From Corallium rubrum (lineage: Eukaryota > Cnidaria > Anthozoa > Scleralcyonacea > Coralliidae): a DNA stretch of 64,000 nt. The DNA lies in the NCBI GenBank assembly GCA_964035015.1, contig OZ036002.1, positions 7,079,143-7,143,142 on the forward strand, in the 5' to 3' direction. Below the pieces are notes generated by a model. It saw nothing but the letters and a program-made list of their open reading frames with translations. It was not told the origin of the DNA and ran no database searches. Below, one piece after another: positions 54,901 to 60,900 of the stretch (position 1 is the stretch's first letter; the number at the start of each line of letters is the position of its first letter). The position numbers and the translations under genes were made by a program.

Positions 54901-57900
54901 TTTACGAGTTATTTCAAATTAGACAAACTTAATTTTTATTGCCAATGTCCTTTAAGACAGAACATTTAAATCGAAAGGGATTTTGGATGTTTTAGCAAGC
55001 TGTCTAACGTATAACACGTCTTTCAAACCACAGGGTCTTCAACTTATGGGTCACAATCCTGAAATGCAAGCACAACTTATACGAAGTGCCATCATAATTT
55101 ATGATACATTAGTAAGTATATATATTGTGCTCCGTTCTCAATTGACCGTACCGAACAGTAAATATTGTTGCTTTTTTTCAGAATTCTGGAAAGATAGGGT
55201 TTTAAAACCTACAGCAAGAACTAACGAGCTGGAAGTACTATACTAACTTACAAAAACATACATACTATATTACGTCAACAAGACCTTTTGTAAAATAAGA
55301 GACCGATTATATAAGTCTTAAGGCCTGGCCAAACGCTTTCAACATTTCATTCAACATCATTCAACATTGTTGAATTGAACATGTTGAAAGCGTTTGGCCA
55401 CCCCTGTTGAATGATGTTGAACGTTGTTGAATGGTATTGAACGAAATTTGAACATGTTCAAATCTTCGTTCAACAAGCATTCAACATTTCTATTGTTCTC
55501 AAAATATTGAAAGGTGTTGAACGCATTTGGCCACATTTCATTCAGCTTTGTTGAACAGAGACATGCGCCATACGCCATACGGGATATTGTCGATTCCAGC
55601 TTTTGTGGTAGCCCGCGTTCAATTAATTGTCATTCATGAATGTTCAACGATGTTGAATTCATTTGGCCACTCGTGTTTTCAACATTATTCAACAATGTTG
55701 AGTGATGTTGAATGCGATGTTGAAAGCGTTTGGCCAGGCTCTTTCCCACTAGTCGCAGAAACTAATTCGCAGCTTGATGGAAGTAGTACTTGTATCTCAT
55801 TAAAAAGAACACACAACGAGAAAACAAGCACTGCGAGTTGTTTTTAATTAGAGGCAAAGACTCACAGCGAGCTGGTTTTCGCAATGACTGGAAAGAGCCT
55901 TGATAATAACTATATATTCTTAATGTATGGTAGCTGTTTTTGGCATGAGCTCGCTTTTAAAAGTACATCCTTTTCTGTTTTTTATAAAGCGCCCTCTTTT
56001 CCCCGAACTAAAGAAAATTCTTCTCCAAGTTCCAAACACAAATGTTGGCGTAATAAATGTAAGTAAGCGAGAGAGATAGCAGAAAAAATAAAACCTAACT
56101 GTTGTAGTTCAGACCACAATCTTCGCGCCACAACCTGTGTGGTAGATTACGTTTAAAAAAAAAACAGGTTAAAAAACAATCGCGTGACTTTAGAACCAAA
56201 TAACTAAATGCATGACAGCTGGTATATCCGTGTAGCCATTATACAATCCTACGTTAACGAATTACGGCAACACGCAATTTGTAAAACTAAAACAAGTCTT
56301 ATCAGTAAGCAATTTTGTTCTCCCCATCCCATTTTTTATTTGTTTTTTTTTTTAATGATTTTTTTTAGGACTACGACAAGTCATTATTCTCTGAGTCTGC
56401 TTTGACGGAGAAACAGAAGAAAAAAGTGTTTAAAAGCCTGTTGGCGGGGCTTATTGCAGTAAGTGTATATAGTTTTGAGTACTTGAGAGTGGGAGTGGGT
56501 GGCGGCAAGTCCTATTACGCTGTACCTTGATTAACGAAGAAAATTGATTGGGGAAATCCTTTTTGCGATAATTTTTTTCCCGTTTATGAGATCGTCTATC
56601 TACACAAAACAAACAACAACAATCGTTTTACGGCCGTTTTCCCCGCTTACGCGCGCGGGGGTTGGCCGGCGACTCCCCACAGCAGTTTCCTCCACTTCTC
56701 TCTCCCCAGAGCATCCTCCCTTTTCAACCCACAATCTCTCATATCCCTTTCCACCACCTGACTCCATGTCATCCTCGGCCTTCCTCGTCCTCTTGTACCT
56801 TCCACCTCGAGCGACATGCTCTTCTTCACCCAGTCACCATCGTCTTTCCGCAGCACATGTCCCAAACATCAGACACCAACTCAATCCCCATTCTTTCCCT
56901 CAGCTCCATACTCGGCACTTTAGCGATACACCACACATCCATCGCACCATCCTCATCTCTGTCCGCTCCAATCTCCCCCTCTGCTCTGCTCTAGATCATC
57001 TATCTATATAAAGCGCAAATAAATTGCTTAGCGCCAAAACACTTGCACATGCAAAGACAAAAAAACCCCACAAAAACAAACAAATCAGCTATTTGCTACA
57101 CAATGGGTTTAACCCATTCCTGCCTGAGCTGTCCAAAAAATGGTCCCATTCTTATTTTACTCTGTTTAACACCAGACGAATTTTACTCATCAAAGGGAAA
57201 ACCCTCAGACATCCTAGGCAGCAATGAATTAACAAGTGATTCACCCTATTATTTTAGTTGGTCTAACGACACAAGATTTTGCTTGTCAAAGGGGTGGCGC
57301 TAGAGCTAGTCCCCCCCCCCCCCCCCCCCATCAGGGAGAATTTACAGATTTGTCTGGGAATGATCTGGAAGAAAAATTGTATTTTTAACAATTGGTAAAG
57401 AAATATTTAACTGATTAAGCTAGAAAAGTCGGCAATTAATGCTTTAATAGTGAAATGCATTTCCTTTAGAAACACAGGATACGGTATATACGGTATATAT
57501 TTGTTATTTTGCATATTCCGTCTCTCTAGGCTATTCTCTCTATCTTATATTCATCAGAAAATCAATTATCCTAATTGTAAATACACAAGTAGAATGATCG
57601 AGACTGTTCCTCCAAAGGGATGTCTGTTCACTGACCTCCACATGCATATACTAATATGTTAACAATAAGAAATGCGTGAAGAAAATTACCAAAATCTATT
57701 CCAATCATGTCATGAAAAACGTTAAAAATATAAAAAAGCTGTTTAGTTCTCTAGAGAACTGGGTATATATATTCCAAAAGTGAAAAGAAAGAAATTTTCA
57801 ATATATCAAAATATTAAAGTCGGGTATATATATATATATATATATATATATAGTAAAATAGGCACACTTAGGTTACTTCATTTAAAACTTTAATCACGAC

Positions 57901-60900
57901 AAATTTGTTTCGTATGACAAGCGGAGCTTGCCACACTCATCAGGTGATTATCGCGTCTGATGTTAATGCCTAGGAAACTTTATGCTATATACAGTTGTGC
58001 GATGACGCAATATGGAAATAAGTTAGGGGTTAAGTTACATGGTTGGATAATAAATATTTGTTTCTATGTCTACACGTCGATATCAGTTCGTTTCTACTGT
58101 TCAGTGAGCTCAGTTCAGGATGGCAAATTATCATAAATTTTTCATGCAAACATAAATTACATCTCTTGGTCTTGTTAGAATACGGCCTACATTGTTTAAT
58201 TACTTTCCATGCAATTGAATATTGTATCTTAGAGTCTTTTAACGTCCAGATATATTTGCTAAGTGCAGTGCTGTTTTTGTGTTTCTGATTTCTGAATGAG
58301 GAAGTGTGATTGCGGTATCTTGTTTTGAAAGTGCCCTCCCCTAACTTATTTCCATATTGCGTCATCGCACAACTGTATATAGCATAAAGTTTCCTAGGCA
58401 TTAACATCAGACGCGATAATCACCTGATGAGTGTGGCAAGCTCCGCTTGTCATACGAAACAAATTTGTCGTGATTAAAGTTTTAAATGAAGTAACCTAAG
58501 TGTGCCTATTTTACTATTTCGCTCTACTTCGGTATTGAGCACTTTTTTCATATGTATTTAACCTACCTACTTCTATATATATATATATTATATATATTAT
58601 ATATATATATTATATTCTAAGGATTTATGGTGAAGGAAAATTCGAGTGTAGAATATATACATTTTAAGACCAAACCGGGAGCAGTTGCGAAAAATGCAAC
58701 TACACAGGCCCTCCGGCAGGAATTGAACCCACGACCTTGCGATTCTAGTGCAATGCTCTGACCACTGAGCCACGGAGGCCGTTGCCGAGAGCTTGATCGC
58801 GAGTTCTGTATATATAATAAGGTGGTAATGCCAGGAGAGAATTGGGTATATTATAAATGATATTGGGCATTTCACTCGATTACATAGCATGTTCTAAGGA
58901 TTTATGGTGAAGGAAAATTCGAGTGTAGAATATATACATTTTAAGACCAAACCGGGAGCAGTTGCGAAAAATGCAACTACACAGGCCCTATCATTTATAA
59001 TATATATATATATATATATATATATATATATATATATATATATATATATATATATATAATTGTAGTAAATATTGCTGTCGCTACTCAGAGTTTCACGCGG
59101 TTAAGCGATCTTCAGGCAACTGACAGACCGTGTGTCACTAAACTCTATAAATACATTGGTGTTAGCAAAGTTGGTGTTTGGTTACGTGTCGGCACTTGGT
59201 AAAAATTTCCGTTCGTTTGTTTAGAGTGTTTTTATGCCTTCCTTTCATGATAAGTAGTTTTTCTTCCAGGCATAGGTTGCATCTTCTGGAACCAGCTTTA
59301 TAAGCCGAAACTTTCTTTAGGATGGACCATTTTAAGCTGAACGCTCGTTTGGCAGATTTTAATTTCCAGATATACTTTGACAGCTCGGTGTCATTGGCAT
59401 ACTTCTGGTTGCTGAAGGACTTTATGTGGTTTCGGTACCTGGTTTTAAATTCGTTCGCTGTTACTCCAACATAAAGTTTTTTCTCGAGGTTATCGCGTGT
59501 TGATACTTCAGCTTGGTAAATCACACTTTCCGTGAGGCACCTACCTTCAGGCGGGCATTCTTGAGTTCGTCGGCAGTTACACATGCGAGTGTTGTTGGCT
59601 GTGTTGGTTTTGTTATCATGCCGTTTTAGAATTTTGTTATTGTGTTTGTTAATGAAGTTTTTCATGTTGTCAGTGCAACTATAACTAATTCTCACGGTGT
59701 GACGGTTAAAAATTTTGCTTAGTTTGTTAGATGGGGGGAAGTGTCTGTCGATTAGCCGTAAAAAGTTTTGTCCTATGTTAGTTTTGACGTTCTTACTGTA
59801 AGGGGGGTTGTACCATAACAAACTAAGCAAAATTTTTAACCGTCACACCGTGAGAATTAGTTATAGTTGCACTGACAACATGAAAAACTTCATTAACAAA
59901 CACAATAACAAAATTCTAAAACGGCATGATAACAAAACCAACACAGCCAACAACACTCGCATGTGTAACTGCCGACGAACTGAAGAATGCCCGACTGAAG
60001 GTAGGTGCCTCACGAAAGTGTGATTTACCAAGCTGAAGTATCAACAAGCGATAACCTCGAGAAAAAACTTTATGTTGGAGTAACAGCGAACGAATTTAAA
60101 ACCAGGTACCGAAACCACATAAAGTCCTTCAGCAACCAGAAGTATGCCAATGACACCGAGCTGTCAAAGTATATCTGGAAATTAAAATCTGCCAAACGAG
60201 CGTTCAGCTTAAAATGGTCCATCCTAAAGAAAGTTTCGGCTTATAAAGCTGATTCCAGAAGATGCAACCTATGCCTGGAAGAAAAACTACTTATCATGAA
60301 AGGAAGGCATAAAAACACTCTAAACAAACGAACGGAAATTTTTACCAAGTGCCGACACGTAACCAAACACCAACTTTGCTAACACCAATGTATTTATAGA
60401 GTTTAGTGACACACGGTCTGTCAGTTGCCTGAAGATCGCTTAACCGCGTGAAACTCTGAGTAGCGACAGCAATATTTACTACAATTATATTTTCGCTCTA
60501 CCTTTATCAATGGTATTGAGCGCTCTGAAAACTAATGCTAGACTAGTAACGCTATTAATGTGGCATACTATTTTTGGTATATATATATATATATATATAT
60601 ATATATATATATATATATATATATATATACAAAATCTAGTAACAAAATTAAACGTATTTAGCAATGTTACTTTCGTTTTTTTTTACGTCAATGGCTTTTC
60701 CCTGTACGATATTCTAGTACACCACAGCAATTGATCTACAAAATTACTTCAAAGTTCATGTCATATCTCATAGAATTTCAACAATTTGACTTTATTGTGT
60801 CTAATTTTTTCCTTCCAGAAAGAGGTTGGAAAGATGTTTCAAGAAGATATAACAATATTAAATCTGCCCGCTCTGCCAGTGGTCAGCAGACTGTCGCCAC

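Follow-up and report, generated by a model that had tools for sequence, protein, structure and literature searches.

We describe here an element at positions 57850–58517 of a 64-kb window of the Corallium rubrum genome (C18:7079143–7143142; 38% GC), the assembly as a whole comprising 474 Mb in 312 contigs; positions given are those of the window unless a contig is named. The element is composed of two arms of 180 nt each (57850–58029, minus strand; 58338–58517, plus strand) that are 100% inverse-complementary, lie 308 nt apart, and each carry a predicted type I hammerhead ribozyme. We think it probable that this is a recent, 5′-truncated, head-to-head insertion of a Penelope-like retroelement with a hammerhead in its own pseudo-long terminal repeat (pLTR)—an object of a known kind—and that its form is accounted for by the mechanism set out below, in which both strands of the target would be primed. 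The evidence that carries this reading is found at the outer ends of the insertions: in every two-ended head-to-head copy resolved, across two families of the same genome, one end lies at each of two fixed start points.

These start points, here called S1 and S2, are separated by 61 nt in this family and by ~90 nt in the second, S2 lying past S1 and the segment between them forming the ‘tail’. An S1 end reads ...ACTAT followed by (AT)n, whilst an S2 end is a tail that closes with ...CTATAT and then (AT)n. In the window, the outer end of the left arm is at S1, directly against a (TA)n tract at 57825–57849; the right arm continues through S1 (58517/58518) into a plus-strand tail at 58518–58578, which starts with a CGCTC...GAGC hairpin and finishes at S2 (58578/58579). 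We read 32 stretches for this family (L009–L032, L063–L069 and the window). Listing the outer arm sequence without prior assumption, for L009–L032 and the window, returned either tail or (TA)n, the exceptions being a duplicated end inside an array (L013), an internal fragment (L019) and a diverged relative (L032, 1481). The tail terminus in subfamily A falls at a single base, q241 (where q is the position along the 180-nt arm and onward through the tail). One S1 and one S2 end are present in all 18 of the two-ended head-to-head insertions of this family (L010, L011, L014, L015, L018, L019, L020, L022, L023, L024, L025, L028, L032, L063, L064, L067, L068 and the window). L025 holds two mirror copies and is counted once; here (G000:C49:9950300–9953000, 1052–1485) two small insertions are arranged mirror-wise, S1–S2 and S2–S1, around (TA)n. 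Apparent counter-examples to the rule at L009 (4076) and in L065/L066 proved to be chance matches of the end pattern.

The second family provides an independent test of the ends. Search patterns matched its S1 end at 35 places, its S2 end at 22 and read-through of the tail at 42 (17 of these in one internal 85-bp array), and pairing of head-to-head ends less than 5 kb apart gave 25 pairs; an S1 and an S2 end lying 14 kb apart (C1:93649109/93663253) are excluded by this limit. In 16 pairs S1 and S2 were both matched directly by the patterns, a further set was read directly and ends at S2 plus (TA)n (C37 (L073), C1:730, C12, C13:130, C188, C216 and C61), and the outer end of the C1:643 pair, at 64372036, is S2, the match at C1:64369632 being internal read-through and no insertion end. 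C150, at first listed as a two-tail insertion, reads through S1 and S2 into an open reading frame (ORF), is not an end and was dropped, taking the pairs from 25 listed to 24 counted; 24 of these 24 have one S1 and one S2 end. For both families together the ends are mixed in 42/42, for which the chance is ~2 in 10^13 if ends are free (at most half mixed) and the insertions are treated as independent. One member of the second family neighbours our element and has the same design, at 59060–60580 (minus arm 59060–59815, plus arm 59816–60490, tail 60491–60580), and five of the six TA tracts of at least 13 nt in the window adjoin these two elements. A separate locus of this family, L070 (G000:C22:14234850–14236900), contains 17 identical head-to-tail units of 85 nt spanning S1 and most of the tail; these may have arisen by reiterative copying of one RNA segment or by plain minisatellite growth.

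The preliminary description of this DNA was right in its observation—the motifs, their context and a stem III that favours dimers—and mistaken in taking the inverted pair to be unusual. Head-to-head is in fact the commonest form, accounting for 14 of the 22 subfamily-A loci found by pattern (one other being an array), and it is likewise the commonest in the second family; the two-ended head-to-head insertions resolved in this one genome number 18 and 24 in the two families, respectively.

To the question of how Penelope-like elements come to have inverted pLTRs and an optional tail, the rule of one S1 and one S2 end offers a simple and testable answer, in two families; the rule was not found in the passages of the open Penelope literature searched. 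The simplest reading of these sequences is that each insertion involves two reverse transcriptions, one per cut strand. The RNA of the element would run pLTR–S1–tail–S2–ORF; the enzyme would cut both strands of a (TA)n tract, with one 3′ end priming reverse transcription at S1 and the other at S2; each complementary DNA (cDNA) would extend 5′-ward through an uncut hammerhead and into the ORF, coming to a halt at no fixed position; and the cDNAs would then be joined across a microhomology of 0–3 nt, or with a few bases added, leaving inverted arms with exactly one tail. That reverse transcription starts inside the RNA is something we infer from the insertion ends only. TAT closes each of the six start sites seen, namely S1 and S2 in subfamily A, in subfamily B and in the second family, such that a start site could pair with a (TA)n end, and a CGCTC...GAGC inverted pair directly follows each start site inspected; folding predicts the hairpin at subfamily-A S1, at S2 taken alone and at second-family S1, but not at every S2 in longer stretches. 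The ends read lie in (TA)n, inside which a target duplication is indistinguishable. The arm–arm junction in the window (58337–58338) has a 2-nt microhomology (CC); among the five junctions with a native reference, the overlap is 2 nt in the window, 3 nt in L010, 3 nt in L011 and 0 nt in L015, with TATA inserted in L014. Unequal arms are seen alongside these short junctions. We lean, if only slightly, towards a stronger version in which the two-strand reaction is obligatory: a dimeric ribonucleoprotein would hold both RNA start hairpins, one per cut (TA)n strand, such that a head-to-head insertion with S1 and S2 ends is the normal product, the tail is the footprint of an asymmetric pair, and the rule holds even where an abortive insertion is just a few tens of bases long.

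Self-priming, in which a single cDNA (or antisense RNA) bends back and serves as its own template for the inverted arm, is the published model for head-to-head rotifer Penelopes with palindromic junctions (PMC3846280), and near-perfect palindromic junctions do occur in L014, L020 and L022. A fold-back copy ends where its template arm ends, and the model thus predicts the same start site at both ends, whereas the ends differ in 42/42 insertions. At L074 the left arm is a ~17-nt stretch of pLTR and the right is tail sequence only, which is absent from the left; at L067 it is the left arm that is tail only. Since the arms share no sequence at either locus they cannot be copies of each other, and such minimal insertions, consisting of hardly more than the two start sites, rule out fold-back copying at the loci concerned; as an explanation of the inverted arms we consider self-priming unlikely. 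We assign a similarly low probability to the element being a relic, formed by two adjacent independent insertions or by an inversion at the level of DNA, with the hammerhead as a dead passenger. Penelopes nest, (TA)n attracts repeats and many copies are truncated, all of which would suit such an origin; against it, all 42/42 face head-to-head, pair an S1 with an S2 end and have short junctions, the sole opposite-facing (+,−) pair seen in the second family is that at C200, and the segment after the cut site, which occurs at 38 genomic places, retains the full 60-nt hammerhead motif in 30 (one with GAA changed to AAA) and is truncated inside the motif in 8. When flanking inverted repeats were sought as a target feature, the only long flank match was in L022 (323 nt, 82%), in direct orientation.

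Penelope-like elements with an endonuclease (EN+) have a single ORF that encodes a telomerase-like reverse transcriptase (RT) and a C-terminal GIY-YIG endonuclease. Between the arms, 58030–58337 (minus strand) appears to hold a 5′-truncated C-terminal piece of such an ORF: an endonuclease-like relic, without a Pfam match, that shares 49% identity, across 94 residues, with the ORF of the neighbouring second-family element. A fuller body is seen in the L012/L013 array (G000:C4:22500–42300), where 2389-bp Penelope-like units are repeated in tandem before an inverted copy and an assembly gap; its left end is S2 and its right end runs into N. In sense order, the array copy consists of pLTR, tail and two ORF pieces: one of 615 codons that contains a YRDD motif, then one of 138 codons, C-terminal and in a different frame. 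As in Penelope pLTRs, the repeats occur both in direct order, in this array, and as inverted pairs; as with Penelope tails, the tail is present at one end and stops exactly at S2, whilst native RNA sense continues past S2. The YVGLT...FKTRYRNH segments of the ORF pieces we take to be Penelope-like motifs, and the RT and GIY-YIG domain names are likewise our presumption. The Penelope-like setting with an endonuclease-like relic proposed in the preliminary description is supported, on anatomy and presumed motifs.

The two hammerhead motifs, 57891–57950 (minus strand, predicted cut after 57898) and 58417–58476 (plus strand, predicted cut after 58469), are supported by a whole-fold descriptor and by family covariation, the second also by co-folding. 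They are identical, oppositely oriented and complete in core and stems, just as had been described. Stem I (UAAUCAC/GUGAUUA, 7 bp) leads into a CUGAUGA core; stem II has 11 bp and a UCC loop and is followed by GAA, with C at H17; stem III (ACAAA/UUUGU, 5 bp) is a loopless palindrome. The conserved core, the three stems and the open ends on stem I are those of a type I hammerhead, and we class the motif as a predicted hammerhead by its core and fold, not by Rfam membership. With stem I set to at least 4 bp, the descriptor finds five candidates in the window (two in this element, two in its neighbour and one at 40576); 60 dinucleotide shuffles of the window gave, with the loose descriptor, a mean of 0.05 candidates and a largest value of 1, and the strict setting is passed by the element at 57850–58517 and by 0/60 shuffles. 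The bare core pattern is weak evidence alone, matching twice where 0.57 is expected, a count that 13/100 shuffles reach. The neighbour’s hammerhead-like motif (59077–59120, minus; inverse copy at 60424–60467, plus) differs in having CUGAAGA and a U-U at the base of stem II.

Across eight distinct motifs of the family, all from this one genome (the window’s, L028, L026, L027, L018, L032, L011 and L012), 98.9% of 180 paired cells are retained, with an A-U pair of stem I replaced once by U-A, three pairs of stem II turned into wobbles, and a single broken pair, in one row, in the palindromic stem III; taken alone, this covariation suggests a modest degree of support for the fold. The minimum-energy co-fold of two copies is exactly a double hammerhead (−48.0 kcal/mol, versus 2 × −20.0 kcal/mol for single copies), and to this extent the dimer expected in the preliminary description, on account of the loopless palindromic stem III, stands. 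It does not hold for a single transcript of the element itself: in an RNA spanning 57850–58517 the two arms would form a 180-bp hairpin (−385.5 kcal/mol) with the ribozyme hidden inside, and a same-sense motif occurs just once on each strand. A dimer is for these reasons to be expected in tandem arrays or between molecules, rather than at 57850–58517; same-sense neighbouring motifs do occur in the L012/L013 array on contig C4.

Saying this, a number of points weigh against the reading of the element as a hammerhead-bearing Penelope-like insertion primed on two strands. At the 5-kb limit 20 second-family ends are unpaired; seven of the 22 subfamily-A loci are one-ended (L009, L016, L017, L021, L065, L066 and L069, of which L065 and L066 look like the same insertion in duplicate); and (TA)n at second-family ends is partly there by construction, being part of the search patterns. 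In PAc, a Poseidon element of Anolis, the RNA start site is reported to have no homology to the target and to show no strand difference (PMC11167929). Pfam, NCBIfam and PDB searches with the ORF pieces tried gave no RT or GIY-YIG match, and the structure model of the endonuclease-like piece (predicted local distance difference test score, pLDDT, 46) is too poor to search; the Penelope-like assignment is consequently based on anatomy and presumed motifs. The covariation score of the eight-motif set is reached by 69/500 shuffles. A covariance-model scan, named in the preliminary description as a check on which the hammerhead claim could fall, found no hammerhead in the window or a 1.1-kb region with Rfam 15, either at gathering cut-offs or at E ≤ 10, and by that formal measure the claim fails; the loopless stem III is a likely cause of the missing match. 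The minimum-energy fold of a single motif is a rod (−20.0 kcal/mol), not a hammerhead, the hammerhead fold without stem III coming to −18.0 kcal/mol. The last two results are what would be seen were the likeness to a hammerhead a matter of chance, or of a non-catalytic sequence; we hold this to be very improbable given the full core and three stems, a shuffle background of almost nil and the retention of the fold in diverged copies (including one with H17 changed from C to A), and given that minimal hammerheads are general in Penelopes, being stated for all available Penelope sequences (PMC6155905). Finally, among insertion ends there is no clear case that records cleavage at q132/133, the cut site being contiguous in 38/38 exact copies; the templates of insertion were therefore uncut at the ribozyme.

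Uncut templates, at a hammerhead that lies beside the start sites, narrow the possible roles of the ribozyme. An arm that begins at the predicted cut site is seen in L025 alone, one in each of its two small insertions, and a TCG microhomology explains these equally well. In five small insertions the arm starts within q69–77, near an initiator-like TCAGAC (58407–58412, plus strand) and downstream of a TATA-like TATATAG (58376–58382, plus strand; q39–45 of the arm; mirror copy at 57985–57991). This clustering is suggestive only; transcription probably starts near q70–77 of the 180-nt arm, judging from these elements. This would place the hammerhead between the cap/transcription start (~q70–77) and S1; it would divide tandem read-through RNA into units of 2.39 kb, working best as a dimer formed via the palindromic stem III; that such cutting yields unit-length or circular RNA is a guess.

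The element sits, by sequence comparison, within the exportin-5 gene and before its last exon, in agreement with the preliminary description. Exons upstream match human exportin-5 significantly; the probable last exon (60819–60983, plus strand), 3′ of both elements, gave no significant match when searched alone and aligns collinearly with exportin-5 residues 1160–1186 at a level below significance. The intron placement looks incidental, and the idea of the inverted pair serving this intron as a functional RNA device, cleaving or regulating the pre-mRNA, is hardly credible: it has two intact motifs and an intragenic locus in its favour, but copies elsewhere share the same design and the arms would form a 180-bp duplex.

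Elsewhere in the window, a 109-nt repeat (58604–58780 and 58881–58989) adjoins a transfer RNA (tRNA)-like stretch (58708–58779, minus strand) and is probably a tRNA-derived short interspersed nuclear element, with other tRNA-like matches at 5730, 17470, 32213, 32496 and 45117. A further inverted repeat at 46387–46862 (211-nt arms, 91%, 54-nt spacer) has no obvious relation to the element. Additional CTGANGA...GAAACGT(C/T) motifs, which look like minimal hammerheads whose stem III is ACGU, are present at 22275–22327 (−), 39623–39673 (+), 40340–40632 (+), 42361–42621 (−) and 47149–47198 (−), those at 40337–40697 lying within a 119-bp tandem repeat.

Turning to known systems, L1 twin priming likewise primes twice at a single target and leaves inverted stretches of cDNA. 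It occurs occasionally, from two positions on the one RNA, whereas every head-to-head insertion resolved here makes use of a pair of fixed start sites. Our elements are closest to Poseidon PAc (PMC11167929) and Pen2 of Adineta vaga (PMC3846280), with which they have in common pLTRs, tandem and head-to-head copies, a tail at one end, AT-rich targets, a hammerhead at the pLTR–ORF junction and two adjacent RT start sites. PAc cuts and extends both strands from two neighbouring RNA start sites, which delimit the tail, and a dimer is predicted for it; its ribozyme mutants still inserted in vitro, with which insertion templates uncut at the ribozyme are in line (PMC11167929). For rotifer Penelopes, inverted pLTRs, an optional tail and AT-rich targets are described together with the self-priming model (PMC3846280). 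Set against PAc and Pen2, both start sites here end in TAT and could pair with a (TA)n target, the tail is longer (61 nt, or ~90 nt in the second family, versus 30–40), the insertion ends are always one S1 and one S2, and stem III is a 5-bp loopless palindrome. The motif shares with the minimal hammerheads of Penelope-like elements and Terminons (PMC6155905, PMC7229834) its type I form, its position in the pLTR, a weak stem III and the expectation of a dimer or protein; those are usually described without a helix III, in place of which we find a conserved palindromic ACAAA/UUUGU. Like the dimeric hammerheads of newt and axolotl and those of metazoan retrozymes (PMC7229834), it is of type I and should do better as a dimer owing to its short stem III; in contrast to the retrozymes, which are there described as short non-coding tandem repeats of ~170–400 nt, the tandem units found here are 2389 bp long and contain an ORF.

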